In this document: positions 15,009-39,305 of the stretch, piece after piece | How positions within the stretch are numbered: position 1 is the stretch's first letter | Layout: the number at the start of each line of letters is the position of its first letter | Origin: a virus | Strand: one strand, 5' to 3' | Virus record (IMG/VR): IMGVR_UViG_3300021090_001172 | Span: 1 to 49,245 of that record | DNA length: 49,245 nt | Notes under the pieces: model-generated | Seen by the model: the letters and a program-made list of their open reading frames with translations, nothing else | Databases searched by the model: none | Told to the model about the DNA's origin: nothing | Translations under genes and position numbers: made by a program

Positions 15009-15634
15009 TGTGGTACGTGTACGTAGACGAAACTCTAGAAGTCGTTCCAAGAATTTACTACATTGGAATGGGTTCTCTTGGTAGAACAAAATGTGTCAAA
15101 CGAAACAGTAAGCATACAGGAATTAGACACAAATATGGATTTGTCAGAAAGATAGTTTTTTCTACGTTTATTCGAAATCTTGCAATAGAATTTGAAAAAC
15201 AACAAATTGTAGAGTGCAAAACTTTCATAGACGATCCTTTGTCAGATGATATTGCATGTAATTTCACAACAGGTGGTGAAGGAAGCAAGGACGTTTCCGA
15301 ACAAACAAAGAAAAAGTTATCGCGCTCTCGGCAAGGAAAAAAATCGTCACTACCTACAAGAAAAAAACAAAGAGAAGCACTTCGTGGAAGATCTTTTTCT
15401 ATTGAACACCGCCGACGTTTAAGAGAGATTGCAAAAAAGAAAAATCTCTCTGAACAAACTCTCCAAAAAAGAAGAGACGCTCAAAAGAAAAAAGTAATTC
15501 AGCTGCTTAACGACAAAATTGTTGAATACTTCGACAGTGTCTTGTCTGCAAAAGAATTTACAGGATTTTCTAATATTGATCGTGCTGCTAGGCAAGGTAC
15601 GACAGCCGGTGGATTTCACTGGAAATATGTCTAA
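15008..15634 (+). CDS. GIY-YIG homing endonuclease with NUMOD DNA-binding modules
   Basis: A 208-residue protein. Residues 3-20 (YVYVDETLEVVPRIYYIG) are a GIY-YIG nuclease signature in YVY/YYIG form, with a candidate catalytic glutamate in IEFEKQQIVE near 61-63. A NUMOD3-like basic segment (SEQTKKKLSRSRQGKK, near 98-113) and a C-terminal NUMOD1-like module (VIQLLNDKIVEYFDSVLSAK through FHWKYV) follow. The ATG overlaps the upstream glycosyltransferase stop and the TAA directly abuts the next ATG, so it sits exactly between two cassette genes. Its AT-rich composition contrasts with the gene downstream. Free-standing homing endonucleases cut alleles lacking them and spread by recombination. Confidence 0.88.
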   Translation: MWYVYVDETLEVVPRIYYIGMGSLGRTKCVKRNSKHTGIRHKYGFVRKIVFSTFIRNLAIEFEKQQIVECKTFIDDPLSDDIACNFTTGGEGSKDVSEQTKKKLSRSRQGKKSSLPTRKKQREALRGRSFSIEHRRRLREIAKKKNLSEQTLQKRRDAQKKKVIQLLNDKIVEYFDSVLSAKEFTGFSNIDRAARQGTTAGGFHWKYV

Positions 15635-16783: not shown

Positions 16784-17523
16784 TGGAACATATCAAGATT
16801 CAAAAGTTGTTGACAGATTACGACATCGATCTCAGCACCGTTTCATTGGGAGATTTCGACCACATCGGAGAATACACGGCCAAGAAGAGCCGTGATAAGA
16901 ATTCCCCTCTGTACGCAAATACCGGAGCCTACTTCAGACCGAACTACGAACGAGGAATCCTGATCTACTCTCTCATCAAGCGTTTCAAGCTCAAGTCGTT
17001 CCTTGAAATCGGATTCGGTAGAGGTTACTCTGCCATCTGCGCCGCCAAGGCATTCCATGACATCGGTGTCGACGGAAAGGTGACGACCATTGACCCCGTT
17101 TTTGATAAAGAACAGCTCGAAACCATGTCCCAGGTATTTCCGAAAGAATGGCTCGAAAAGATCGATCTGAAACAGGGTCTTTCGCAGCAAGTTCTCAAGG
17201 AGATGGATGGACCATGGGATTTCGTCTACATCGACGGCGACCATCATGCAGCAGCCGTTCAGGCCGACTGGGATCTGACGAAGAACAAGTGGGGAAGTTT
17301 CCTGCTCTTCGATGACTATCACCTACCTTCGAAGAAAGAAGCGAACATCGAATGTGCGATCGCAATCGATAGAATCGATGAAACTAAATTCGATGCTTCT
17401 AAGAAGTTGATCATCATGGATCGCAGAATTTTCTTGGACGATAGACGATACACGGACGAAGCCATAGATTATGGTCAGTGTTTACTAGCAAAGAATAGTT
17501 TGCTAGAATCTGATGGATGGTGA
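16783..17523 (+). CDS. SAM-dependent methyltransferase (class I)
   Basis: A 246-residue protein. Motif I of a Rossmann methyltransferase is EIGFGRGYSA (75-84), followed by TTIDPVF (102-107, the acid that binds the SAM ribose), FVYIDGDHH (147-155) and LLFDDYHLP. The order and IDGDH pattern fit the Methyltransf_24 type often found in glycan clusters as O-methyltransferases of sugars. The ATG at 16783 overlaps the previous stop by one base; a GTG one codon earlier is possible. The target is probably a sugar, from context only. Confidence 0.82.
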   Translation: MEHIKIQKLLTDYDIDLSTVSLGDFDHIGEYTAKKSRDKNSPLYANTGAYFRPNYERGILIYSLIKRFKLKSFLEIGFGRGYSAICAAKAFHDIGVDGKVTTIDPVFDKEQLETMSQVFPKEWLEKIDLKQGLSQQVLKEMDGPWDFVYIDGDHHAAAVQADWDLTKNKWGSFLLFDDYHLPSKKEANIECAIAIDRIDETKFDASKKLIIMDRRIFLDDRRYTDEAIDYGQCLLAKNSLLESDGW

Positions 17524-18356
17524 TTTCTACTTACAAAATCAAAAGACGATCTCATATTAGAGATGGAAGAAAGTCTCGATATCATGCAACAGAACAACTT
17601 ATTGCAGAACTTCATTGCGATAATTGCGACACATGGTTTAGCATGAAGATCACTCCATCTTTTCTTATCAAACAAAAACATCATTTCTGTTCGAAAGAAT
17701 GTATGAATTTAGCTGCTAAAAATGGTGGGAAACTTTTTGAAGCAAAAAAGAAAACATGTTTAGAGCACTTTGGGCATGAATCTCAAAATTCTGTCCAAAG
17801 CGTCAAAGACAAGAAAAAGAAGACATTCGTAGAGCGGTATGGAGTCGAAAATCCATTCGAATCTTCTGATATTAAACTGCAAATTCGTAAAAATATCTTA
17901 GAGAGGTACGGTGTTGAACACACGTCTCAAATTCCAGAAAGTCGACGAAAGTTCAGAATAACGTGCCTTGAAAGATTTGGAACAGAAAATCCTCTACAAA
18001 ATCGAGAGATTTACTTAAAAGTTCTGAAATCACGATCCAAAACTACTTCATTGGTGCATTGGAAAACTCAAGAAGAACTTCTTTGCACGGCTTCTTACGA
18101 AATTGCATTTGTAGAATGGTGTAACAAAAACCATATTGATTTTGATTGGCAAATTTCCCATACGATGCCCGATGGACGCGTTTACAATATCGATGCATTC
18201 ATCAAGGATGGAAAGTTTAGAAACACATGGATAGAAATCAAAGGGTGGAACTACGAGGGAGGAAAACAAAAGTGGGAATGGTTTCACTCTATCTACCCCG
18301 AATGTTCTCAAATGTGGAATGAATCACGTTTAAAAGAACTCGGGATTTTACTGTGA
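17517..18356 (+). CDS. Putative homing endonuclease: zinc finger, four 23-residue repeats, PD-(D/E)XK nuclease
   Basis: A 279-residue protein. Cys34, Cys37, Cys58 and Cys62 form a zinc finger. Four imperfect repeats start at residues 80, 103, 126 and 149, exactly 23 apart, with consensus x(C/F)LE-(R/H)-(F/Y)-G-(V/T/H)-E-N (for example TFVERYGVENPF, TCLERFGTENPL). The C-terminal nuclease has YEIAF (Glu195), YNIDAFI (Asp226) and WIEIKGW (Glu240, Lys242), the D...ExK core of PD-(D/E)XK enzymes. It overlaps the methyltransferase stop by seven bases and the next GTG by four. It is very AT-rich (18 of 60 G+C at 17701-17760). Homing function is inferred from architecture and placement. Confidence 0.78.
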   Translation: MVISTYKIKRRSHIRDGRKSRYHATEQLIAELHCDNCDTWFSMKITPSFLIKQKHHFCSKECMNLAAKNGGKLFEAKKKTCLEHFGHESQNSVQSVKDKKKKTFVERYGVENPFESSDIKLQIRKNILERYGVEHTSQIPESRRKFRITCLERFGTENPLQNREIYLKVLKSRSKTTSLVHWKTQEELLCTASYEIAFVEWCNKNHIDFDWQISHTMPDGRVYNIDAFIKDGKFRNTWIEIKGWNYEGGKQKWEWFHSIYPECSQMWNESRLKELGILL

Positions 18357-19865: not shown

Positions 19866-20062
19866 TGAGATTATTATACTTTGCAATTGGAATTGCCATC
19901 GGCTTTTGTGGCGCAGATTTCATCGGTTCATGCAATCACATGAGCGATTTTCACGGTGCCAAACCGAATACTGACGACGTCGTGAAACTGTGTCGTGTGG
20001 TCACCCACAGTAGCAGCGATGGATACAAGTACTGGTCGTGCGACAAGATCGAGAAAAAATGA
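19865..20062 (+). CDS. Small membrane or exported protein
   Basis: A 65-residue protein starting at the ATG of the TAATG overlap. Residues 2-19 (RLLYFAIGIAIGFCGADF) are hydrophobic and could be a signal anchor. The remainder is hydrophilic with cysteines at 15, 23, 42 and 58, of which the later ones could form a disulphide outside the cytoplasm. An IGSC before position 24 looks like a lipobox, but the aspartate within the hydrophobic run argues against a lipoprotein. Function unknown. Confidence 0.55.
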   Translation: MRLLYFAIGIAIGFCGADFIGSCNHMSDFHGAKPNTDDVVKLCRVVTHSSSDGYKYWSCDKIEKK

Positions 20063-20787
20063 ATCGCTACGTTTTCATCGCTCCCACGTTCAATGCTCTT
20101 CTCACTTGCAAGAAAGCTATCTTGAGTCTTGCCGTACAATCGTTTGAAAATTGGCATCTCATCGTTATCGATGACATGTCAACAGATGGAACAGAGCTCG
20201 AAATCAGAAATACGTTCAGTTTTCTCGGAATCTATGAGAGATTGACGTACATCAAGAATGACAAGAAGCTCTGGGAAGTTGAAAACGTTCTTCAAGGTCT
20301 AAAGAGATGTACTCCAGATGATATCGTCTGTCGTTTCGACCTCGATGATTACCTGACAGATGCTAACGCGCTTGAAATCATCGACATGCAGTACAGGAGT
20401 GATCAAAAATTAGAAGCATTATGGAGTTCTCATCGATGGTTTGATGAACGAGGTATCACCAACAATAACATCTCCGGTCCAATGCCTGACAATGCTGATC
20501 CGTACAAGTACCCATGGGTTTCCAGCCATCTCAAGACTTTTCGAAAAAGGGTCATCGACGAAGTGAATGACCAGAACTTTCGAGGACAGGATGGCAAATA
20601 CATCCGTCGAGCGGGCGACCAAGCGATTTACCTTCCGTGTCTAGCTAGAGCTAAGAAGAGAATGTATCTACCTGTCACAATGTACGCTTATCGATGTGAC
20701 ATGAATCCGCAGACATTTCAGACCGACGACGCTAAATTCCAAAAAACAGAGGCTGATTTCCTTAGAACCAGAGGGTTCGTTGAGTGA
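20059..20787 (+). CDS. GT2-type glycosyltransferase
   Basis: A 242-residue single-domain GT-A protein. The N-terminus (YVFIAPTFNALLTCKKAILS) is followed by the nucleotide-sugar-binding IVIDDMSTDGT near residues 41-51 and the metal-binding CRFDLDDYL near 90-100, both standard for family 2 inverting transferases. The start is the ATG at 20059 in an ATGA overlap, not the upstream in-frame codon at 20038. Length is typical for a GT2 catalytic domain without membrane helices, so it probably works in the cytoplasm. Confidence 0.88.
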   Translation: MNRYVFIAPTFNALLTCKKAILSLAVQSFENWHLIVIDDMSTDGTELEIRNTFSFLGIYERLTYIKNDKKLWEVENVLQGLKRCTPDDIVCRFDLDDYLTDANALEIIDMQYRSDQKLEALWSSHRWFDERGITNNNISGPMPDNADPYKYPWVSSHLKTFRKRVIDEVNDQNFRGQDGKYIRRAGDQAIYLPCLARAKKRMYLPVTMYAYRCDMNPQTFQTDDAKFQKTEADFLRTRGFVE

Positions 20788-23204: not shown

Positions 23205-23897
23205 GTGTGTCAGGGGTATCGAGCTCAAAAAGTATGTAAATCTTGCGGAATGCAATTTCAGGTTGTAGGCAAGACTAGACACCAACAATTCTGTAGCAAG
23301 CCTTGCATCAACAAGGGACGAACACATACAGAAGAATGGAAGTTAGAGATGTCTACGCGCAATTCTGGATCTGGTAATCCATTCTATGGCAAGAATCACT
23401 CACTTGAAACGAAGCTCTTTCTTAAAAACAGAATTGAAGGTTTGACGTGGGAAGAACAAATGGGAGAAGAAAGAGCTTCTCTAAGGAAAGAAAAACAGAG
23501 TGAAACTTACACTGGAGAAGGAAATCCGTTCTACGGCAAAACGCATACTGTTGAAACTAAAAACAAGATCTCAGAATCTCATCGAGATTGCTCTGGATCA
23601 AATAATCCAATGTTCGGACAGGGAGAAAAACTAAGGGGAAACAAGAATGGTGCATGGGAGGGAGGAATTTCCCATGATCCATATTGCGGATTGTTTACTG
23701 AAAATCTCAAGACAAAGATAAGAACACGTGATAGATTTACATGTAGAGTGTGTGGGAAGAATGGTAGTCATGTTCACCACATTGATTATGACAAGTTGAA
23801 CAGCGTTGAAGATAATCTTGTAACTTTGTGTCATAGTTGCCACATGAAAACGAATTTTGGTCGAGAAAATTGGACGGAGTTCTTTCGTAATGAATAA
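23205..23897 (+). CDS. HNH homing endonuclease with zinc finger and NUMOD3 repeats
   Basis: A 230-residue protein starting at GTG 23205; an in-frame TAG at 23193 rules out a longer form. Cys11, Cys14, Cys30 and Cys34 form an N-terminal zinc finger. Three NUMOD3-type repeats follow (GSGNPFYGKNHSLETK, GEGNPFYGKTHTVETK, GSNNPMFGQGEK). The HNH nuclease is near residues 185-222 (CRVCGK, HVHHIDYD, NLVTLCHSCHMKTN), with the catalytic histidine pair and both CxxC zinc pairs present. It overlaps the gmd start by eight bases and is AT-richer than gmd. A hairpin lies immediately before its start. Confidence 0.9.
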   Translation: MCQGYRAQKVCKSCGMQFQVVGKTRHQQFCSKPCINKGRTHTEEWKLEMSTRNSGSGNPFYGKNHSLETKLFLKNRIEGLTWEEQMGEERASLRKEKQSETYTGEGNPFYGKTHTVETKNKISESHRDCSGSNNPMFGQGEKLRGNKNGAWEGGISHDPYCGLFTENLKTKIRTRDRFTCRVCGKNGSHVHHIDYDKLNSVEDNLVTLCHSCHMKTNFGRENWTEFFRNE

Positions 23898-26926: not shown

Positions 26927-27729
26927 ACATAGCGTATCTGCTCGTAACGTGTTCTAGAGAAAAAACGAGAGACCTCATGCTTAAGAAGGTCATCGAAAGT
27001 CTCAAAATTCAAGATGCTTGGAAAGTTTGGGAGAGCGACTTTTACGTTTTCGATAATGCATCGACATACGAACATACGCAAGTAGAATTGATGTCATCCT
27101 TTAAGAAAGTCATCTTAGCAGAGGACAATTATGGATACTGGAGCGCCGTGAATTGGTTTGTAGAGTTCTCTCAAAATCGAGGATACGACTACGTTTACAT
27201 CATGGAAAGCGATTGTGTTCATCACAACATCGAACAACTCCATGACGGAGTAAAGTTGCTTGAACTAGATCCCTCGTTGGGAATGTTGAGAGCTGCAGAG
27301 TTTTCTTTAGAGAACAAACATTTGTACGATAAAGCCCAACGTCATCCAGGATCTATCACTTCTGAGTGGTTCACACAGAGCAATTTTTTCACAAAGGAAA
27401 CGGCTTCATACGAACAAACCGAGGTTCCTAACGTCTATAAGACGAACTTAGTTGCGAAAGTTTGTGGACTTCATAGAGTCTCTGTTCTGAAAGCGGTGTT
27501 GTTTCAATTGCAGTCGATTGAATGGTTTATTGAAGTTGATTTTCAACGCTTTTACCACAAGAAGTACCCATTCAATGCAATATTGGATGGCGGGATATAC
27601 AATTCAACACCGGCTTACGAACCAAATGTAATTGCAGGAAGTCTCGTCAAAGAAGCAGTTGACGAGAATGGTTATCGTAAGACGAGAGAAGGATTCATCA
27701 CTCCTGTTACGGAGATGAGGGTAAAATGA
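26923..27729 (+). CDS. GT-A-type glycosyltransferase
   Basis: A 268-residue protein starting with GTG 26923 in a GTGA overlap (VNIAYLLVTCSREKTRDLML). The fold pattern is GT-A: YVFDNASTYEHTQ, DNYGYWSAVNWFVEF and an acidic metal-site candidate in YIMESDCVHH near residue 90. The second half holds NVYKTNLVAKVCGLHRVSVL and a typical closing aromatic stretch. A GT2-like enzyme of unknown substrate is the best reading. The later half is AT-richer than its start. Confidence 0.72.
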   Translation: MNIAYLLVTCSREKTRDLMLKKVIESLKIQDAWKVWESDFYVFDNASTYEHTQVELMSSFKKVILAEDNYGYWSAVNWFVEFSQNRGYDYVYIMESDCVHHNIEQLHDGVKLLELDPSLGMLRAAEFSLENKHLYDKAQRHPGSITSEWFTQSNFFTKETASYEQTEVPNVYKTNLVAKVCGLHRVSVLKAVLFQLQSIEWFIEVDFQRFYHKKYPFNAILDGGIYNSTPAYEPNVIAGSLVKEAVDENGYRKTREGFITPVTEMRVK

Positions 27730-28787
27730 AGTTTTTCATCATTGGTGGAACGGGATCTCTTGGAAAGAAATTGATCGATAGACTCATCGATGTGCATGAA
27801 GTTTTTGTGTACTCACGTGATGAATCTAAACAATGGTCTATCAAGAATGACTTACTTCATCGCGGAACGGCTCCCGTTACGTTTTTCGTTGGAGATATCA
27901 GAGACAAGAATCGGTTGAAGGATGCCCTTCGCCAATCTCGACCAGACATCGTCATTTCTGCAGCAGCTCTTAAACAAGTCGATGTTTGTGAGATCAATCC
28001 TGACGAAAGCATAAAAACGAACCTCATTGGAACTCAAAACGTGATTGATGCTGTGAATGAGTACGCTCACAGCATGACGACAGGCATCGGAAACATCAAA
28101 AAGGTCACTCTTCTATTCGTCAGTACAGACAAGGCATGCGCACCTGTCAACACGTACGGAATGAGCAAAGCTCTTTCAGAACGACTCGTTACGAGCCAAG
28201 CAAAGACCGGTCTCAAGAATGTGAAGTACGTCTGCGTTCGTTACGGAAACGTTCTGGAATCCAGAGGGAGCATCATTCCGTTGTTCAGGTACCAGGCAGA
28301 GAATTCCGAGTACTTGACGGTCACTAATCCTGACATGACCAGATTCCTCATGACCCTCGACCAAAGTGTCGACCTGATCTTTAAAACTATCGAACTCGGA
28401 GCATCAGGAGAAACGTGGATTTCTAAGCTTCCTGCAATGAGAATCGGTGATATTGCTGACGTGTTCGCTGAACACTACGGGAAAGAAGTGAAGAAGATCA
28501 ATGAGCGTCCTGGAGAAAAGATGCACGAAGATCTCATCAACGAGTCTGAATCTATTAGAACTCGTCTCGTTGACAGTGGAAAATACTACGCTATCCAACC
28601 TGCTTTCATCGTAGACTCAGAACCAAGGTTCGAATATTCTAGCAATGATGACGTGATGACCAAGGTAGAACTCAGAGATTTTCTCACGAAGATCGAGGTT
28701 CTTGATGCTCCAATGGAACGGTTCTCTGGTCAAAAGATCGAAGAAATTGTCTCAACCGCTCCTGTCGCTAAGCGAGAGAAAAAGTGA
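27726..28787 (+). CDS. UDP-GlcNAc 4,6-dehydratase-like enzyme (PseB/CapD/PglF type)
   Basis: A 353-residue extended short-chain dehydrogenase. NAD(P) binding GGTGSLG (7-13); VFFVGDIRD-like FFVGDIRDKNRL; catalytic residues in FVSTDKACAPVNTYGMSKAL (Ser133, Thr134, Asp135, Lys136, Tyr144, Lys148). The STDKA-x-x-P-x-N-x-YG-x-SK arrangement is specific to the soluble PseB/FlaA1 and CapD/CapE dehydratases. It converts UDP-GlcNAc to a UDP-4-keto-6-deoxy sugar; whether C5 is also inverted (PseB) or not (PglF) cannot be read by eye. It is coupled by GTGA to the aminotransferase at 28784, the normal next step. Confidence 0.87.
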   Translation: MKFFIIGGTGSLGKKLIDRLIDVHEVFVYSRDESKQWSIKNDLLHRGTAPVTFFVGDIRDKNRLKDALRQSRPDIVISAAALKQVDVCEINPDESIKTNLIGTQNVIDAVNEYAHSMTTGIGNIKKVTLLFVSTDKACAPVNTYGMSKALSERLVTSQAKTGLKNVKYVCVRYGNVLESRGSIIPLFRYQAENSEYLTVTNPDMTRFLMTLDQSVDLIFKTIELGASGETWISKLPAMRIGDIADVFAEHYGKEVKKINERPGEKMHEDLINESESIRTRLVDSGKYYAIQPAFIVDSEPRFEYSSNDDVMTKVELRDFLTKIEVLDAPMERFSGQKIEEIVSTAPVAKREKK

Positions 28788-29953
28788 AAGAACGAAAAGA
28801 AATCCATCTGTTCAAGGCACATCTTGATGTAGATCTTGCGATGGTCTATCTTAGAGATGCTCTCGAATCTGGATTCTTAAACGAAGGTCAGCAAGTAACA
28901 GATCTCACGAAGGAATTCTCTCGTCTTCTAAAGTCCGACAAGTTGATCTTGGTCAATAGTTGCACGTCAGCTTTGACGATGGCTCTAAAGTTAGCAGGAG
29001 TTGAAGTTGGTGACGATGTTGTGACAACGTCTATGACATGCGTCGCAACTAACATGCCTATCAAACATGTTGGAGCAAACATCGTATGGGCTGACGTGGA
29101 CCCAGATACGGGAATGATCAGTGCAGAAACTCTACAAGCCGCAATCACATCCAAGACGAAAGCCGTGATGGTAGTTCTGTGGGCCGGCAACCCTTCTGAG
29201 CTGGAAGAAATCCAGAACATTTGTAAGACCAATGATGTCAAGCTCATTTTAGATGCTGCTCATGCGATGTGCGCAAAATACGATGGAAGGCCAATACACG
29301 AATTCGCAGATTTTTCTTGTTACTCGTTCCAAGCAATCAAGCATGTGACCACCGGTGACGGAGGAGCTCTGATCTGTTCCAGCAAAGAAGATCATCTTCA
29401 ATCAAAGAAGATGAAATGGTTCGGCCTCGATCGCGATAAAGCGAAGGACGAAAAGGGAAATTGGAAGGGTCAGCAGTGGGATGTTGACATCGAAGATGTT
29501 GGATACAAGTTCAACCTCAACAACATATCCGCAGCCATCGGAATGTCTCAGGTTTCTCATGTCAATAGGATCATGAGTAAACACCGAGCAAACTCCGAGA
29601 CGTATGACGAACTCTTTACGACGACTGACCTGATCGAGCCAATCAAGAAAGACCCGAAAGCAGATGGATCTTCGTGGGTGTACACGATCGTTTTGTGTGA
29701 CAAGCTCGCTCCGAAACGCGATGAGATCCTTAAACGACTCAATGATGAAGGCATCAGAGCGGGCGTCGTACACGTTCCAAACCATGAATATACAGTCTTC
29801 AGAGATGAACGCAAGGATCTTCCTGGTGTCAAACGATTTTTTGATCGTCAGTTCTCGTTACCATGTGGGTGGTGGATGAAGAAATACGACGTATCCTATG
29901 TTTTCGATAGGTTGATGACCCACGTCGAAATCTGTGCTAAGGACCAAGAATGA
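28784..29953 (+). CDS. DegT/DnrJ/EryC1-family PLP sugar aminotransferase
   Basis: A 389-residue protein of normal family length, starting with GTG. The PLP lysine is Lys186 in SFQAIKHVTTGDGGAL; Asp157 and His160 (LILDAAHAM) contact the cofactor; NSCTSALTMAL (58-68) is the phosphate-binding region. NNISAAIGMSQ and the closing SLPCGWWMKK are also typical. It transfers an amino group to C4 (or C3) of a nucleotide 4-keto-6-deoxysugar. Directly after the PseB/PglF-like dehydratase it is probably PseC- or PglE-like; GDP-perosamine synthase acting on the Gmd product is the alternative. Confidence 0.9.
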   Translation: MKERKEIHLFKAHLDVDLAMVYLRDALESGFLNEGQQVTDLTKEFSRLLKSDKLILVNSCTSALTMALKLAGVEVGDDVVTTSMTCVATNMPIKHVGANIVWADVDPDTGMISAETLQAAITSKTKAVMVVLWAGNPSELEEIQNICKTNDVKLILDAAHAMCAKYDGRPIHEFADFSCYSFQAIKHVTTGDGGALICSSKEDHLQSKKMKWFGLDRDKAKDEKGNWKGQQWDVDIEDVGYKFNLNNISAAIGMSQVSHVNRIMSKHRANSETYDELFTTTDLIEPIKKDPKADGSSWVYTIVLCDKLAPKRDEILKRLNDEGIRAGVVHVPNHEYTVFRDERKDLPGVKRFFDRQFSLPCGWWMKKYDVSYVFDRLMTHVEICAKDQE

Positions 29954-30750
29954 GAATCCACATTGTTACAAATGCTTCCACGCTACCTTACCACGACTAC
30001 TGTATCGACAATCATCGTAAGCTAGCCAAGAATCCAGAAAAGTTAGAATTTTTCTCCTACTGCTTGGACGCACAAAGCTATTTTCGTCTGACATCAGAGG
30101 GTAAGAATTCTGTTCGCATCGCTGACAGTAGCGGTTCAGTTGGACATGCCCTGGGGATCCAGGCATTTCTTGGAAATCTCAAACCGAATGAAGTCAATAT
30201 CATCACAGATTCGGACTGTATTGTTCTAATGAAAGAATGGGATGTTGCGATCGAGAACATTCTAACGACTGCTGGTATTGCAGGAACGACGTACGAAGAT
30301 ATCGGTGGTCATAGTTCGGGTTCGGGTGCTGTTCAAACGTACAAGAAGATTCCTAACTTCACATGGGCAGTTCTTTCTCCGAACTACAATTGGGATTTCG
30401 ACGCCATGTGTCAGAAGCAATCAAATATGTTGATCGAAACTCCAGAAATGGAAGCGACATTCAACATTCCGATCGGTTCGTCTTTACTTCGGGAAGGAAA
30501 TTGGAAACTTCCTGTTCATCTTAGAGAACGCAACATTCCGTACTACAGTTTCGATTTTGTTAGGCCCACGTCACCCCAGGCGAAGGCCGTGTTAAGCGGT
30601 GAGGATTACCACACCGAATACCAATTGAAGGACGGAAGACCCTTCGTGGCTCACCAACGTGGCTCCATGAGCAAAGCCTTCCGTAGCCACCACCTGTCCA
30701 AGTCTTTCTATGACGTATGCGAGGCGTACCTGAACAAGGAGAATGCATGA
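29950..30750 (+). CDS. Putative GT-A-fold glycosyltransferase
   Basis: A 266-residue protein coupled by ATGA. It opens with a Rossmann-like strand (MRIHIVTNASTLPYHDYCID). A DxD metal site lies in NIITDSDCIVLM (about 84-95), preceded by SGSVGHALGIQAFLG, a nucleotide-sugar region often seen in small transferases. The C-terminus (EYQLKDGRPFVAHQRGSMSK) has histidine and arginine residues like other transferases of this type. Substrate unknown. Confidence 0.7.
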   Translation: MRIHIVTNASTLPYHDYCIDNHRKLAKNPEKLEFFSYCLDAQSYFRLTSEGKNSVRIADSSGSVGHALGIQAFLGNLKPNEVNIITDSDCIVLMKEWDVAIENILTTAGIAGTTYEDIGGHSSGSGAVQTYKKIPNFTWAVLSPNYNWDFDAMCQKQSNMLIETPEMEATFNIPIGSSLLREGNWKLPVHLRERNIPYYSFDFVRPTSPQAKAVLSGEDYHTEYQLKDGRPFVAHQRGSMSKAFRSHHLSKSFYDVCEAYLNKENA

Positions 30751-31478
30751 AACCAATTCTCATCACGGGAGCTTCTGGTGGAATCGGTCTTGCGTTGGTA
30801 GAGTACTTCCTATCAACAGGACACCGGGACATCGTTTGTCAGTATCGATCTGGAAATTCGGCGCTTTCGGAACTCTTTGCAAAGCACGATCTTGACTACT
30901 ACAAACACACGTTCCCAGCTGATCTAACTGAAGAGCTCCAGGTTAGTTCTCTACACTCTCATGTGAATGCTCACTTTGGGAAGATATGGGGAGTGATCAA
31001 TCTCGCTGGTTCTTCGTCTAACGGTATGAGTTGGAGACTTTCTAAAGATGATTTTTCTAAAGTCATCAACAACAATCTCATGACAACATTCTTAGTTTCG
31101 AAGGAATTCATTCCTGAAATGCGAGAGCAAAACGGCGGAAGGATCATCAATGTATCTAGCGTTGTTGGTTTCACCGGAGCTGCGGGAGCGTCTCACTACA
31201 GCGCTGCCAAAGCCGGCATCGTAGGGTTGACAAAATCGATGGCTCTCGAACTTGCTAACAAGAACATCACAGTCAACGCTTTGGGGCTCGGGTACTTCGA
31301 ATACGGATTGATCAATCATCTCTCTCCTGCAATTCAAGAAGATGTCAAGAATAAGACTCCTGCCAAGCGTTTTGGAAAAGGAAATGAGATCGGGGGAGCA
31401 ATCAAGTTCCTGATGGGTGATGATGGAGCTTTCACGACAGGGCAGGTCATTCACATCAACGGTGGAATCTACCTGTGA
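30747..31478 (+). CDS. Short-chain dehydrogenase/reductase (FabG-like)
   Basis: A 243-residue classical SDR starting at the ATG 30747 of an ATGA overlap. The cofactor loop is TGASGGIG (7-14), the structural NLAGSSS is near 93, and the catalytic set is VSSVVG (Ser), SHYSAAKAGIV (Tyr and Lys), with the typical closing TTGQVIHINGGIYL. FabG-like enzymes reduce 3-oxoacyl-ACP, but many SDRs in glycan clusters reduce keto-sugars. Given its neighbours (aminotransferase upstream, acetyltransferases downstream) it could provide a 3-hydroxyacyl chain for N-acylation of an amino sugar, or reduce a sugar; both are inference. Confidence 0.85.
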   Translation: MKPILITGASGGIGLALVEYFLSTGHRDIVCQYRSGNSALSELFAKHDLDYYKHTFPADLTEELQVSSLHSHVNAHFGKIWGVINLAGSSSNGMSWRLSKDDFSKVINNNLMTTFLVSKEFIPEMREQNGGRIINVSSVVGFTGAAGASHYSAAKAGIVGLTKSMALELANKNITVNALGLGYFEYGLINHLSPAIQEDVKNKTPAKRFGKGNEIGGAIKFLMGDDGAFTTGQVIHINGGIYL

Positions 31479-32392
31479 ACGAAATCGAATACAGGCCTCT
31501 CAAACTAGATGAGGACAAGAAAAAATTCAAAGCCCTCCATAACATTCTTTTCAAGAATACAGCCATGTCTTCAGAGTGGATGGACTGGTACTTCGAACTT
31601 GCTAAAGACGTTAGAACCTACGGGGCTTTTGACAATGAGAATCTCGTGGGAATCTGGTGTGTCGAAGCAAAAGAACTTAGTGTGGGCCGTAGAAACACGA
31701 AACCTGTCGGACGATGTTTTTCTGTTGGTGTACATCCCAGTTTTCAACGTCGAGGAATCTTTCTCGCTCTCAGCAAGTTTGCAATCGAACAAGAGAAAAA
31801 GAAGGGTCAGTACGACTACATCTTGGGATTTCCGCAATTTGGAAGATCGGTCATCGATGGCCATCTAAAGGCTGGATGGGAACACGCCCAAGACATCGAT
31901 GTGTTTAGCATCAAACCAAGTCTCGTCGACGAGAAAGCTTCGTTGAATAGCGTAGGACGTTTGGAAAAATTTGATAACGAAGATTCTTTTGTTCCAAAGG
32001 GTGGATTCAAAGAATCAGCGAGATATAACACACGTCGATGGCTACGCCATCCAGACAACCACTACGTCTGTCTCGATTATGAACCTGGAAGTTTTATCGT
32101 TGTGAAACCGTATGGAGATTCCTGCCACATCCTAGGGTTAGAAGGTCCTAACGAAGATGTTATTGAACTTCTTGAAGCTGTGAAGACACTTGCTAGGCGG
32201 CATGCTTGGAAAGAAATCAACATGTGGTGTGCCTCGAATGATCCCAAGAAAAGCGCTGTAAAAAGCTGCGGATTCTCGTTAGGATCTGAAAGAGGAACAG
32301 GCGTCAAATTACTGGCTGTCAGAATCAATGCGATTGAACCACTTGTTCTTGACAAATGTAGTTTCCAAATGGGCGTCGAGGAGGTCTATTAG
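31475..32392 (+). CDS. GNAT acetyltransferase
   Basis: A 305-residue protein starting with GTG. The GNAT acetyl-CoA loop is GRCFSVGVHPSFQRRGIFLA (motif A; Q-R-R-G-I) near residues 79-98, followed by the helix LSKFAIEQEKK and FPQFGRSVIDGHLKAGWE as motif B. The second half (from about 170) is a second GNAT-like or degenerate domain (SCHILGLEGPNEDVIELLEA). Two-domain GNATs are known for sugar and peptide acylation. It probably N-acylates the amino sugar made by the aminotransferase. Confidence 0.72.
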   Translation: MNEIEYRPLKLDEDKKKFKALHNILFKNTAMSSEWMDWYFELAKDVRTYGAFDNENLVGIWCVEAKELSVGRRNTKPVGRCFSVGVHPSFQRRGIFLALSKFAIEQEKKKGQYDYILGFPQFGRSVIDGHLKAGWEHAQDIDVFSIKPSLVDEKASLNSVGRLEKFDNEDSFVPKGGFKESARYNTRRWLRHPDNHYVCLDYEPGSFIVVKPYGDSCHILGLEGPNEDVIELLEAVKTLARRHAWKEINMWCASNDPKKSAVKSCGFSLGSERGTGVKLLAVRINAIEPLVLDKCSFQMGVEEVY

Positions 32393-32395
32393 TCA

Positions 32396-33265
32396 ATGAA
32401 TTACTCTCTACGACCCATCGAAGAATCTGATCATGAATGGCTTGTCGTTCTACATAACGATCCGCTTGTACTGAAAAACGTTACTGATCCCACGATAATC
32501 ACTCTAGAGTCTCATCTCAAATGGTGGGATGGCATCAAAGACTCGAAGAGTGAAGAACGTTTCATTTTCTGCGTGGATGGGATGAGAGCAGGGTTCACCA
32601 AGTTCTACAACATCGACCGTGCAAACAAAAACTGCAAGCTCGGTGCAGATCTTCACGAATCTTTTCGTGGTAAAGGACTTGCGAAACACATGTGGAACTT
32701 GATGATCGATCGTTGTTTTCAAGTTCACAGATTACATCGAATTGCTTTGACAACAGCAGAGTACAATGATGTTGGAATTTACACGTATCTATCGTTAGGA
32801 TTTCGCATTGAAGGTCGAAATAAATGCTCTCTTCTAAGAGATGGAAAATTTTTTGATGAAGTTTGCATGTATATGCTCGAATCATTTCGCAATGAAAAAC
32901 CGACACGTAGAGAAGGACTACAAAAATGTGCCAGTTGTTCAGAATTTATGATCAAAAAGAGCCATACGCACAAAGTTTGCAAAACCTGCACTCCTACGAA
33001 TTCGTCTCGTAGTCGATATAGACGATACAAAATTTCCAGCAAACAACTGCAAGAGATGATCAACGATCAACATGATTGTTGTTTTTTGTGCACAAAAAAA
33101 TTCACTAATCACCAAAGAGGAATGCATGTAGTTCATGATCATGAACTAGGGACCGTTAGGAAACTTCTTTGCCATCGATGCAATTGGATTGTCGGACTAA
33201 TTGAAAAAATGACATCTGATGAATCGCTAGATAAAGTGCTTGACTACGTCAAAATGTTCAAATGA
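32396..33265 (+). CDS. GNAT acetyltransferase fused to endonuclease VII-type nuclease
   Basis: A 289-residue chimera. Residues 1-165 are a RimJ/PseH-like GNAT with the acetyl-CoA loop ESFRGKGLAKHM (88-99) and IALTTAEYNDVGIYTYLSLG (116-135). Residues 178-198 are a C-x2-C...C-x2-C linker. Residues about 211-289 are an intact recombination endonuclease VII domain: zinc ligands Cys229, Cys232, Cys259 and Cys262, catalytic VVHDHE (Asp248, His249) and Asn263 in HRCNW. A strong GGAGG lies upstream of the ATG. From about 32,690 the sequence turns AT-rich. The nuclease is in frame with the GNAT with no stop between them. A mobile endonuclease merged with its host gene is the simplest reading; the GNAT part looks complete. 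Confidence 0.85.
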   Translation: MNYSLRPIEESDHEWLVVLHNDPLVLKNVTDPTIITLESHLKWWDGIKDSKSEERFIFCVDGMRAGFTKFYNIDRANKNCKLGADLHESFRGKGLAKHMWNLMIDRCFQVHRLHRIALTTAEYNDVGIYTYLSLGFRIEGRNKCSLLRDGKFFDEVCMYMLESFRNEKPTRREGLQKCASCSEFMIKKSHTHKVCKTCTPTNSSRSRYRRYKISSKQLQEMINDQHDCCFLCTKKFTNHQRGMHVVHDHELGTVRKLLCHRCNWIVGLIEKMTSDESLDKVLDYVKMFK

Positions 33266-34164
33266 AAAAAGTTCTACAGATAGTTGATAGTCTTGAGTAC
33301 GTAACGACGAACGGGTTCCAACACCAACTTCTAAAAACTCTTCAGCAAGAAACAGATCTGCTGACGATTCCCATCACTAAGTTGGAAAAATTTCACTGTG
33401 AAGGTCGGATCGTGCTATCGACCCTTAAGTTGAGATCTGTCGTAAAACATGTTGATTTGCTACAATTCGTTCTCGGATCAACTCCGCTGTATGTATACGA
33501 CCAAGACGCTTGGGAATCGTTCATGGATGAAGGGTCTTACAGAGGAAGCTATAAGATGATCAGTTCAAAACTCAATGTCGTGAGTTTTTTAAATCCATCC
33601 AAGTGGTGGTCAGACCACATCAATTCGATGGGATCACCCAGCAAATTCATCAAAATTTGGATCTTACCAGAGTACTGCGGATCAAAACAATTCTCTCAGA
33701 GGACAATAGACGTGGGTTTCATGGGACAACTTCACCCATTCAGAAAAGAATCATTCGAATCGTTGAAAGTTCTGGGGATCGATGTCACAACTTTTCCGGG
33801 TGAGAGCTACGCTGCTTACCTTACTAAGGTTTCTGACATGAAATTCTTTCCACATTACGAACCCGCACGATGGCACATCGATGGAAAGTTAATCGAATGC
33901 AGCGCACTCTACGGTAAAACTGTTGAAGTCATGGCTCGAGGAACATTCTGTTTGAGAGAGAAATGTGGTGAGGCCGCACATTGGAACTTGTCCCAAAATC
34001 CCTTGTTACTTGAGTTCGAATCTCTTGAGGAGTTCGTGGAAAAAGTTCGTCACGTGCAATCTCTCCCTGTAGAAGTTGTTGATTCTATGATTGAAACTGG
34101 AGTGAAAATGATCGTAGAAGACATTGGTTGGAAAACTGTCGTGGAGGCTATCGATGAAGCCTAA
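33262..34164 (+). CDS. GT-B-like glycosyltransferase
   Basis: A 300-residue protein in an ATGA overlap with the fusion gene upstream. The second half resembles a spore-protein/CgeB-type or group 1 donor domain: VGFMGQLHPFRKESFESLKV, FFPHYEPARWHIDGKLIE, SALYGKTVEVMARGTFCLRE (the position of the E-x7-E region) and a closing helix. The first half lacks a clear motif. It overlaps the next gene by eleven bases. Confidence 0.68.
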   Translation: MKKVLQIVDSLEYVTTNGFQHQLLKTLQQETDLLTIPITKLEKFHCEGRIVLSTLKLRSVVKHVDLLQFVLGSTPLYVYDQDAWESFMDEGSYRGSYKMISSKLNVVSFLNPSKWWSDHINSMGSPSKFIKIWILPEYCGSKQFSQRTIDVGFMGQLHPFRKESFESLKVLGIDVTTFPGESYAAYLTKVSDMKFFPHYEPARWHIDGKLIECSALYGKTVEVMARGTFCLREKCGEAAHWNLSQNPLLLEFESLEEFVEKVRHVQSLPVEVVDSMIETGVKMIVEDIGWKTVVEAIDEA

Positions 34165-34897
34165 GATCTTTGTCGGGACCATGCGAAGTGGAGAAGAAGA
34201 GTTCGAAGAATCTCGAAAGTTGATTCTCCAGCAGAAAGATGTCGACGTTGTTCACTTCATTGTAGACAGCTTGCCAGAATACGAAGCCCATAATGCTCTC
34301 TGGGAAACATGGAACGATTGCAAGTGGAACTTTGAAGTATTCATCAAAGTGGACGCAGACACATTGATCGATGATCACACGAAGTTCTCGCAAATCGCTG
34401 CAGAATTCGCTAAGAACCCTCGTTTGACTGGAATGCAGATCCCGTTACATGATTACTTCATGGATGGACCGATCCTCGGGTTGAACTGCTTCACTCCGCA
34501 GGTCGTGTTCATCCACGCGAAGAGTCGTTTACATGCTGACCATGCGGACACCAATCATGACATCGTCTATCGAGGAGAAGCTGTTACCCACCTAACTCCA
34601 GCTGGCAGGCACTGCGCATATCCGAATGATCGGCAGGCATTCCACTACGGTTTGCATCGCATGAAGAAGAACCAACGAGACACTATCGTAAGCGTCTATC
34701 ATGCCTGGAAGAAGAGCGGAGGAAATGGGAGATTGCTTGCTCTTCATGGAGCTCGAACAGCAGCCATTTCTTCAGTAGACCATGATTACAACTCTTCAAC
34801 TTTTGACGGAGCTTTCGCTCAACTCATGAGTGACGGAATTTTTGAGAATGGAAAGCTTTCAGACATGGAAGCATTCATGAGAATGCTCGGAGCTTAG
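34154..34897 (+). CDS. GT-A-fold glycosyltransferase-like protein
   Basis: A 247-residue protein; the start is put at ATG 34154 (MKPKIFVGTMRSGEEEF), eleven bases inside the end of the upstream gene. The DxD motif is KVDADTLID near residues 75-83. VVHFIVDSLPEYEAHNALWE matches the early strand and helix of a GT-A fold, and the C-terminal half has several histidines (AFHYGLHRMKKNQRD). Its stop overlaps the stop of the convergent minus-strand gene by four bases. Confidence 0.7.
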   Translation: MKPKIFVGTMRSGEEEFEESRKLILQQKDVDVVHFIVDSLPEYEAHNALWETWNDCKWNFEVFIKVDADTLIDDHTKFSQIAAEFAKNPRLTGMQIPLHDYFMDGPILGLNCFTPQVVFIHAKSRLHADHADTNHDIVYRGEAVTHLTPAGRHCAYPNDRQAFHYGLHRMKKNQRDTIVSVYHAWKKSGGNGRLLALHGARTAAISSVDHDYNSSTFDGAFAQLMSDGIFENGKLSDMEAFMRMLGA

Positions 34898-36618: not shown

Positions 36619-36648
36619 ATGGAACATTCGAATTCAGCTGGGAATGAC

Positions 36649-37464
36649 ATGCGTTTCATTGTCTACAAACATACCAACAAAATCAATGGCAAGTCGTATC
36701 TGGGTTTCACGTCTTATACGATAGATGAACGTTGGAATCAACATGTACGAGCAAGTCGGGGAAAACGAAAATCGTTATTCTTGAATGCTTTAATTTCGTA
36801 TGGAACAAGTGACGATGTTTGGTTGCACGAAACTTTGGGAACATATGATACAGAGCAAGAAGCGAAATTAGCAGAGATATCTTGGATCGCTCGTCTCAAG
36901 ACGAATGGATTACGAGAAGGGCACGTTGGCTATAACATGACAGACGGCGGTGACGGAACTCGTATGTTAGGTCCTGCCAATCCGATGTTTGGAAAGAAAG
37001 GACCATTGTGTCCTAGCTACGGAAGAAAACATACAGACGATGCACGCAAGCGAATTTCAGAATTCCACTCAATCTTTAAGAATACAGATGAGTGGAAAGC
37101 ATTCATGACCCAGCTCCACACTGGAAGAGTTGTGTCTGAAGAAACACGCAAGCAAATCAGTGAAACTAAACAGGGTACAATGACTGGAGAGTTGAATCAT
37201 GCCTACGGAAAAACATATCGTACAAAAGAAACACATCCTGAATGGGCTGAAAAAATTAGTATTGCTCTAGAAGGTGATAAAAATCCGTTCTTCGGTAAGC
37301 AACACTCTGATGAGACGAAAGCTATAATTTCGAAGAAAAAGAAGGGTCGAAAGAACCCTAAAACTCCTGAATGGGAAGCCAAGCGAGCTGCTTCATACAG
37401 TAGAAATTGCGCGATAAAACGATTTAGAAAAGCATCAAGGAGATGGTTCTGTGGGAAAATATGA
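36649..37464 (+). CDS. GIY-YIG homing endonuclease with NUMOD3 repeats
   Basis: A 271-residue protein. The nuclease signature is FIVYKHTNKINGKSYLGF (3-20), with catalytic Arg28 (DERWNQH) and Glu76 (EAKLAEISWI). NUMOD3-type modules follow at NPMFGKKG (111-118), NHAYGKTYRTKETHPEWAEK (183-202) and NPFFGKQHSDETKAI (212-226). The start is put at ATG 36649, immediately after the restored end of the upstream gene; an in-frame ATG at 36619 exists, but its ten residues (MEHSNSAGND) are out-of-frame sequence of the upstream gene. It overlaps the glf start by 14 bases. Confidence 0.9.
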   Translation: MRFIVYKHTNKINGKSYLGFTSYTIDERWNQHVRASRGKRKSLFLNALISYGTSDDVWLHETLGTYDTEQEAKLAEISWIARLKTNGLREGHVGYNMTDGGDGTRMLGPANPMFGKKGPLCPSYGRKHTDDARKRISEFHSIFKNTDEWKAFMTQLHTGRVVSEETRKQISETKQGTMTGELNHAYGKTYRTKETHPEWAEKISIALEGDKNPFFGKQHSDETKAIISKKKKGRKNPKTPEWEAKRAASYSRNCAIKRFRKASRRWFCGKI

Positions 37465-38581
37465 TCTAGTGGTAGTCGGTGCAGGTCTCTGGGGGAGCAC
37501 TTACACTTATTACATGAAACAACTTGGCAAGAAAATTCTTGTCATCGATAAAGCAAACCATATCGCAGGAAATTGTTACACCTACAATGATGGTGGAATC
37601 AATGTCCACGTCGCAGGACCCCACATTTTCCACACGTCAAACGAGCGGGTTTGGAATTTCATGAACAAGTTCGCGAAGTTCAATCACTTCGTGAATCGAC
37701 CGAAGGTCATGCGGAATGGAAAGATCTATTCCTTCCCAATCAACCTCCTCACCTTGTACCAAGTCTGGGGCGTAAGGACACCAGAAGAGGCCAGGAAGAA
37801 GCTTGATGAAGTCAAGGCTGATATCCCCAACCCGAAAAATCTCGAGGAGTGGTGCCTCTCCCAGGTCGGAGAAGAGATCTACGATCTGTTCGTTCGCCAC
37901 TACACGGCGAAGCAATGGAAGACAGATCCAAAGAATCTCCCAAGCTTCATCATCAGACGTCTTCCCATTCGTTTGACGTTCGACGACAACTACTTCACGG
38001 ATCCGTACCAGGGAATTCCGATCGGCGGATACACCCGCATCTTTGAACAGATGTTAGATGGTGTCGAAGTTCAACTTGGCGTGAATTTTTTCGAAGAGAG
38101 GACTCGTTTAGAGAACATGCTCAAATCGGACGGAAAGTTGATCTACACTGGTAGACTCGACGCGCTATTCGATTACGACCAAGGAGAGCTCCCGTACCGA
38201 AATCTCCAGTTCGACCACAAGAGGCTTGAGATTCCCGACTTCCAGGGAAACGCAGTCGTGAACTACAACGACCCAGACGTAGCGCACACGAGAGTCACCG
38301 AACACAAGCATTTCGAGTTCGGAACGCAGGACCATACGGTCGTTAGTTACGAGTATCCCATTGATTACGACAGGAACCACACACCGTTCTACCCGATCAA
38401 CAATGAAGAGAACGATGCTTGCGCGCGTGCGTATAGTGCACGAGCTGAATCTGATGGAATTATTGTCGGTGGACGTTTAGCCATGTATCGTTACATGGAT
38501 ATGCATCAAATTGTGCCCTCTGCGATGCACAGATTTGAAAAAGAAACAGGACTCAAGATCGATTACATGGGAAGACTATAA
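37451..38581 (+). CDS. glf: UDP-galactopyranose mutase
   Basis: A 376-residue flavoenzyme, complete compared with bacterial Glf (about 367). FAD binding is in VVVGAGLWGSTYT (7-19), with HIAGNCYTY (37-45) and the near-diagnostic GPHIFHTSNERVW (56-68); FPINLLTLYQ, RHYTAKQWKTDPKNLP, YFTDPYQGIPIGGYT and VGGRLAMYRYMDMHQ are conserved Glf blocks. It converts UDP-galactopyranose to UDP-galactofuranose for galactofuranose-containing glycans. It starts with GTG 14 bases inside the end of the GIY-YIG gene. The last 160 bases are AT-richer than the rest. Confidence 0.95.
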   Translation: MGKYDLVVVGAGLWGSTYTYYMKQLGKKILVIDKANHIAGNCYTYNDGGINVHVAGPHIFHTSNERVWNFMNKFAKFNHFVNRPKVMRNGKIYSFPINLLTLYQVWGVRTPEEARKKLDEVKADIPNPKNLEEWCLSQVGEEIYDLFVRHYTAKQWKTDPKNLPSFIIRRLPIRLTFDDNYFTDPYQGIPIGGYTRIFEQMLDGVEVQLGVNFFEERTRLENMLKSDGKLIYTGRLDALFDYDQGELPYRNLQFDHKRLEIPDFQGNAVVNYNDPDVAHTRVTEHKHFEFGTQDHTVVSYEYPIDYDRNHTPFYPINNEENDACARAYSARAESDGIIVGGRLAMYRYMDMHQIVPSAMHRFEKETGLKIDYMGRL

Positions 38582-38582
38582 A

Positions 38583-39305
38583 ATGGCATTTGATTTCATC
38601 CAGAAGAAATTCGACAAATACGTTGACGAGACAGCGAACAGAGTTTTTAACACAGCATGCAATCAGCTCATGGCTTTGCCGTTAATATCGCCTCTTGTCA
38701 CGACAGTCACAACGACCATGGTTCCAGAACCACATTTCTTGACCAACGTCACATCTCGTGTGAAGGATCTATTTTCGCATGCAGGAATGCACGCTGAGAT
38801 CCTTTTTGATTCGAATGGAATGTCGGTAGAGTTCAAAATGAATGTCTTCGACTCTCAGGAAGTTCTTGAATCCGAACACATCGACGATTTTTTCTGGAGT
38901 AGAAGTCCTGGTAAGTTTGTCAATAAAATGACAGGGCAGCCTGTCATGCTTGCTTCATCGCTTGCGCAAGGACCAACATTTGATGGAACAGTCAGAGAAT
39001 GGTACGAGTGCCTCGTTGAAACTTGCATCGATGCGAGCAATCGAATCCATGAATATACGAAGGACAGTCCTGCAGAAATCATCCGTTGTGGACCAGATGT
39101 TCTTACGATCTTCGAATGCTCTGTGCTTTATCGTCCATCTTTTAGCGTAGATAATAACTCATCTCCGTACGAGGGAATGCTCTCCAATCGATTCAAAGTC
39201 ATCAAAGATATGTCGATGGAACGCAATAAGATTGAAGTATCTCGAGTTCGAAACAATAAAAAGTCGTTTTCTATCGTCACTGTTATGGACATGAACATCA
39301 TCTAA
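38583..39305 (+). CDS. Hypothetical protein between two nucleotide-sugar genes
   Basis: A 240-residue protein not recognised. It starts one base after the glf stop (MAFDFIQKKFDKYVDETANR). The frame is open further upstream, but that part would lie inside glf. The middle shows alternating hydrophobics (EILFDSNGMSVEFKMNVF, VLTIFECSVLYRPSF) consistent with a beta-rich fold; the N-terminus is helical. It has no motif of a sugar enzyme, so its place between glf and the dehydrogenase may be incidental. A virion or tail-associated role cannot be excluded. Confidence 0.65.
   Translation: MAFDFIQKKFDKYVDETANRVFNTACNQLMALPLISPLVTTVTTTMVPEPHFLTNVTSRVKDLFSHAGMHAEILFDSNGMSVEFKMNVFDSQEVLESEHIDDFFWSRSPGKFVNKMTGQPVMLASSLAQGPTFDGTVREWYECLVETCIDASNRIHEYTKDSPAEIIRCGPDVLTIFECSVLYRPSFSVDNNSSPYEGMLSNRFKVIKDMSMERNKIEVSRVRNNKKSFSIVTVMDMNII

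Follow-up and report, generated by a model that had tools for sequence, protein, structure and literature searches.

A phage acetyltransferase gene joined in frame to an endonuclease VII-family nuclease that has probably lost its cutting activity

Introduction

In phage T4 endonuclease VII (EVII, gp49), Asp40, His41 and Asn62 are reported to be catalytically essential, and Asp40 and residue 62 to coordinate Mg2+ (PMC5481773). T4 EVII and the families PF02945 and PHROG 2914 and 2633 share with the nuclease described here an HNH beta-beta-alpha core, four zinc-binding cysteines, and the equivalents of His41 and Asn62, and phage EVII-type genes also have its N-terminal CxxC..CxxC knuckle. The acetyltransferases PseH and SpeG (TIGR03585, NF011709; PDB 4ri1, 3wr7) resemble the other part of the same protein in having the full GNAT fold, the RGxGxA motif, the counterpart of Tyr131, and PseB- and PseC-like neighbours.

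Homing-type nuclease genes cluster in phage genomes and sometimes alter their neighbours (PMC10448857, PMC2988022). Free-standing phage homing genes such as T4 mob/seg and the ICP1 HEG islands (PMC2988022, PMC10448857) are comparable to the present locus in that a nuclease lies between operon genes, is present or absent among relatives, and shares its island with several more homing-type genes. At Aeh1 nrdA/mobE (PMC2988022) a homing nuclease at a new operon site likewise changes the structure of the neighbouring gene.

The locus lies in a 49,245-base IMG/VR fragment (the window, by which we mean the whole stretch of DNA that was analysed), which holds a long island for glycan synthesis; PhoH and Clp-protease genes lie at the left end. 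It departs from each of the systems above. Unlike T4 EVII, its nuclease has Val246 in place of Asp40, sits behind a GNAT, and is without the long C-terminal part of the T4 enzyme; unlike PseH and SpeG, its GNAT scores below both equivalog cut-offs and carries a 120-aa nuclease tail. In contrast to T4 mob/seg and the ICP1 islands, the nuclease is joined in frame to the upstream enzyme and has lost an active-site residue, and whereas mobE is inserted inside its host gene, the window GNAT is left undivided, with the nuclease as an extension. It appears to be a genuine, isolated gene fusion and not a working enzyme with two activities.

Results

One open frame encodes both parts

Positions 32396-33265 (+) constitute one open frame of 289 codons with no internal stop, with AGGAGG ahead of the start and a stop that overlaps the gene at 33262 as ATGA; with Pfam matches to both parts, this bears out the original prediction of a single uninterrupted frame for GNAT and nuclease. 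The 289-aa product is a complete PseH/SpeG-like GNAT followed by a near full-length EVII-family nuclease (aa ~169-289), and the fusion is real in this assembly. Its features are as follows.

32396..32899 (+), GNAT N-acetyltransferase part, aa 1 to ~165-168, with RGKGLA at aa 91-96, N124 and the catalytic-type Y131
32882..32926 (+), fusion junction, aa ~163-177
32927..32989 (+), N-terminal C4 zinc knuckle of the nuclease (C178, C181, C195, C198), covered by the PHROG matches and present in EVII relatives
33017..33262 (+), EVII core (HNH, beta-beta-alpha-metal), with zinc ligands C229, C232, C259 and C262, and H247 and N263 intact
33131..33133 (+), codon GTT for Val246, where T4 EVII has its catalytic Mg2+-binding Asp40
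33262..34164 (+), downstream gene, whose start overlaps the fusion stop by 4 nt (ATGA) and whose orthologue lies near the separate GNAT of the closest relative

A fusion made by frameshifting is ruled out because both parts occupy one frame and no shift is needed, and an intron or intein is ruled out because the GNAT is uninterrupted and ends where its orthologues end. The nuclease has no start and ribosome site of its own, the in-frame ATGs at 32867, 32873 and 32948 being without a Shine-Dalgarno sequence. Two possible relics of a gene boundary, ATGA at 32892-32895 and AGAAGGA at about 32908, were considered; neither is in the right frame, two compensating indels would have to be assumed, and we left both as chance occurrences.

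The acetyltransferase is complete and its relatives end without a nuclease

In a Pfam search PF13302 matches aa 5-136 (E=8e-12, 46.4 bits against a cut-off of 25.4), and the acetyl-CoA motif (Q/R)xxGx(G/A) is present as RGKGLA, placing this half in the GNAT superfamily. The SpeG and PseH structures align with it to aa 158-163, and the window GNAT retains 26 of the 27 positions conserved at 90% or more among 25 distinct phage orthologues. The GNAT is thus as complete as it had first appeared, and these comparisons indicate that the acetyltransferase is under constraint. An initial AlphaFold run gave a good EVII part and GNAT N-terminal half and a poor GNAT C-terminal third, the latter because the alignment mixed the domains; with a GNAT-only alignment the C-terminal third improved and the EVII half worsened, and no one model was good for both domains. 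Foldseek pairs the second of these models, based on GNAT orthologues, with SpeG along the full length of the domain (E=3e-14, target TM 0.79); in the initial run, block-mean pLDDT is 84-96 from residue 211 onward, in the nuclease core. With the PseH equivalog TIGR03585 the score is 51.9 bits against a cut-off of 93.1, so that 'PseH-like' refers to position only and the substrate is a candidate only.

The position in question is defined by two upstream genes.

27726..28787 (+), PseB-like UDP-sugar 4,6-dehydratase of the same pathway, scoring 276 against a cut-off of 408
28784..29953 (+), PseC-like DegT aminotransferase (PF01041), below the cut-off for TIGR03588 (247 against 424), which precedes the GNAT orthologue in most relatives

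Between the PseC-like gene and the fused GNAT (29950-32392) are a gene of unknown family, an SDR, and a second GNAT (Acetyltransf_9).

An alignment-based scan identified IMGVR_UViG_3300033063_000058 (G001) as the closest syntenic relative, in which about two dozen genes match those of the window in largely collinear order, PseB and PseC being 62% and 58% identical. Its GNAT is 53% identical to the window's and ends in DQICMYMLCSDWSYQ / MYMLCSDWSYQ and a stop codon with no nuclease behind it; an orthologue of window gene 34124-34897 follows directly. In G001 the GNAT directly follows PseC, unlike in the window. The same nuclease-free GNAT, followed by the 34124 orthologue, is present at a second locus (L155).

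A PseC-pair scan of IMG/VR provided 80 further loci, from phages of up to 459 kb, on which HMM searches were run. In these PseC-centred loci of large phages, 31 GNAT orthologues score strongly (E below 1e-25); 25 are distinct, and most of these lie directly or nearly behind the PseC-like aminotransferase. LR756511.1 and L113/L114 similarly have the aminotransferase and then a separate GNAT. None of the 25 distinct orthologues is fused to an EVII, and the HMM searches found no EVII anywhere in the 80 loci. The orthologues end at most about 15 residues past the last GNAT strand (for example in CMYMLCSDWSYQ or SMYMLESDWKNQ and a stop, as opposed to CMYMLESFRNEKPTRREGLQKC in the window), which places the fusion point at about aa 165-168. 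In free-standing EVII genes the first CxxC usually comes 3-8 aa after the start; in the fusion it begins at C178, and the two parts therefore abut with almost no linker.

The nuclease half keeps its zinc sites and has lost an active-site aspartate

PF02945 (Endonuclease_7) matches aa 208-286 (E=1e-14, 54.3 bits against a cut-off of 23.6), and the PHROG EVII models (2914, 2633) match from aa 161-167 to aa 287, reaching further back because the nuclease has its own N-terminal C4 zinc knuckle, a CxxC..CxxC arrangement also found in EVII relatives. In the alignment with T4 EVII (PDB 1e7d; phmmer E=2e-4), HLDHDHEL lies over HVVHDHEL, so that D40, H41, D42 and H43 correspond to V246, H247, D248 and H249, and Asn62 corresponds to Asn263. 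The protein had been credited with all zinc and catalytic residues; this stands for C229, C232, C259, C262 and N263 and fails at the Asp40 equivalent, and the proposed catalytic pair Asp248/His249 is off register, aligning with T4 D42/H43.

EVII relatives were collected from IMG/VR with the pattern VR[GK]LLCxxCN; an eight-sequence EVII alignment had no conserved stretch, and a core alignment gave a usable pattern. The column of V246 is Asp in all 74 aligned relatives, as it is in all EVII ORFs listed unaligned, and since this residue lies outside the pattern its conservation is not a selection artefact. The zinc-cysteine, His41 and Asn62 columns are likewise invariant (74/74), although for the second zinc pair and Asn62, which fall within the pattern, this invariance is partly an artefact. 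Of the catalytic trio the fusion thus retains His247 and Asn263 and has Val246 for Asp40; zinc sites and fold are preserved in the nuclease, the Mg2+-binding Asp is gone, and most likely the domain no longer cuts DNA. A single base change would turn the Val246 codon, GTT, into an Asp codon; the substitution may thus be of recent date, and in principle it could be a consensus error. Outside V246 the core is well kept over about 120 codons, a degree of preservation that a long-dead passenger would not be expected to show, and inactivation may be recent.

These residues bear on whether the protein is a working bifunctional enzyme, with an active homing endonuclease as the C-terminal half of an acetyltransferase. 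In addition to the four core zinc cysteines, H247, H249, N263, R255, G267 and the N-terminal knuckle are all intact, the frame is open to its end, and the nuclease region is AT-rich like the homing genes of the window, yet the residue reported as an essential Mg2+ ligand in T4 EVII (PMC5481773) is Val here and Asp in every aligned relative. We consider this explanation unlikely, and the proposal that the fusion keeps both functions does not hold up well against the substitution.

The nuclease behaves as a latecomer

G001 does have an EVII gene, separate from its GNAT and about 8 kb away (locus L117; record 41879-41506, minus strand). Its reading frame starts within a glycosyltransferase gene, 25 nt short of the 3' end of the latter, and it keeps the active-site Asp, with a frameshift breaking the EVII gene before the second zinc pair. 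In the window no EVII follows the orthologue of this glycosyltransferase (20038-20787, 47% identical), so that an EVII at this site is found in G001 only, and conversely no EVII lies behind the GNAT at the syntenic sites in G001, L155 and all the orthologues. Such reciprocal presence and absence is typical of mobile nuclease genes, and together with the gene's position it makes a homing endonuclease identity plausible. It also agrees with the original view of the nuclease as joined to the gene that it sits behind, in that G001 has its EVII elsewhere and the GNAT lacks one in 25 of 25 orthologues.

Four further homing-type genes are present in the window.

14951-15634, weak, NUMOD3-related
17517-18356, DUF7487
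23205-23897, NUMOD3-HNH
36619-37464, GIY-YIG-NUMOD3

No counterparts of these four were found in the parts of G001 examined. Their GC content is 36.4-41.5%, nearly all other genes being at 41-49%, and the EVII part of the fusion has 37.9%, in the 4th percentile of same-size window pieces. The AT shift begins within the GNAT coding region, as had been noted: aa 101-160 (32696-32875), the last third of the GNAT, has 34.4% GC, in the 1st percentile of same-size window pieces. Its protein sequence is well conserved despite the low GC, and the same stretch in G001 has 51% GC. Perhaps this reflects drift, or co-conversion around the inserted nuclease.

The domain pair is found only in the window

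A database search for the GNAT-EVII pair, proposed along with the original prediction, located it nowhere else in the collections searched. No match spanning both halves was present in INPHARED (50,697 phage records) or PLSDB (72,556 plasmids), about 123,000 records in total, and none of 80 EVII loci in IMG/VR has a GNAT in frame with the EVII. A DNA pattern combining GNAT and EVII motifs at the window spacing matches the window only and nothing in IMG/VR, a weak negative given its low sensitivity; single-protein scans of IMG/VR, in which the entire fusion, the GNAT upstream of it and the gene downstream of it served as queries, gave no match under a requirement for exact 8-mers that is too strict; and the GNAT half had no relative among genome contigs, in which bacterial genomes are barely covered. 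Four long EVII ORFs (L020, L026, L049 and L084) were inspected by eye as possible fusions and have no recognisable GNAT; the repeats of L049 look like other HNH/AP2-type parts, and L020, L026 and L084 have apparent chance open frames upstream.

That the fusion is carried by one genome and one contig only, that no orthologous GNAT is joined to a nuclease, and that the G001 EVII is a separate gene would all fit a sequence or assembly artefact, in which an overlapping GNAT and free-standing EVII were merged by a masked stop or frameshift, perhaps along with an error at codon 246; a single consensus error at that codon could mimic the loss of the Asp. We regard an artefact as quite unlikely, as no frameshift is required, the 289 codons are stop-free in one frame, the start and the downstream ATGA junction are clean, and there is no in-frame internal ATG with a good ribosome site near the nuclease start. 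In the relatives examined the two parts are always separate, a pattern that had been named in advance as counting against the fusion, and which instead makes it specific to the lineage of the window without refuting it.

Discussion

The explanation that we favour, and consider probable, is that a mobile, homing-type EVII gene landed behind the GNAT gene and joined its reading frame, and that the nuclease has since lost its catalytic activity or is losing it, with the acetyltransferase retained. The host gene would be the GNAT step of a phage-borne 4-amino-sugar glycan pathway (PseB/PseC/GNAT-like), to whose 3' end a free-standing homing-type EVII gene was added, and comparison with the orthologues shows that the two became one frame at the natural C-terminus of the GNAT. 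The GNAT half probably still acetylates the product of the aminotransferase, a 4-amino sugar, and the nuclease would most likely be a non-cutting passenger tail that may still bind DNA.

A different fate for the same tail is domestication, in which a non-cutting EVII is kept because the acetyltransferase gains something new from it, for example by binding DNA or a junction, by oligomerising or by being localised. Nuclease domains have been reused after loss of activity, and retention of the zinc sites and fold with loss of one catalytic residue is what such reuse might leave; against this, the fusion is in one genome only, no orthologue has the nuclease, the Val could be recent decay, and we know of nothing that functionally connects a sugar acetyltransferase with DNA. 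We therefore think domestication improbable, and its strongest form, in which the tail would bind DNA or oligomerise and make the phage sugar N-acetyltransferase a new kind of bifunctional glycan enzyme, very improbable.

With the passenger tail as the preferred reading, the locus is a curiosity and not a new system. As a natural case it is clean and comes with empty-site relatives: a mobile phage nuclease gene has merged with a metabolic gene, its cutting seemingly lost and the host enzyme intact. It offers a test case for the fate of homing-type genes, which may end as tails on their neighbours and not by deletion alone. It is also a warning that a nuclease annotation on such fusions may not mean nuclease activity.

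The same GNAT has also been fused in another phage contig. In IMGVR_UViG_3300022752_000015 (L131:7139-8449) a 436-aa ORF has it as the C-terminal part, and the N-terminal 265 aa match window gene 29950-30750 with 38% identity; at L127 and L155 the GNAT and the 29950-30750-like gene are separate, with a 4-nt overlap. The L131 fusion is independent of the EVII fusion, and since in-frame joining at tight gene junctions recurs in the operon, the EVII fusion is less startling.

Two minor observations concern neighbouring genes. At L126:5575-6383 the 29950-30750-like gene is split by a stop into two ORFs and is whole at L127:7140-7949, and the GNAT orthologues beside these two copies are of the same length and score. 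In the window, a 264-aa ORF at 38511-39305 has a Pfam match to T4 major capsid protein Gp23 that is borderline (24.2 bits, cut-off 24.4) and odd in a glycan island.
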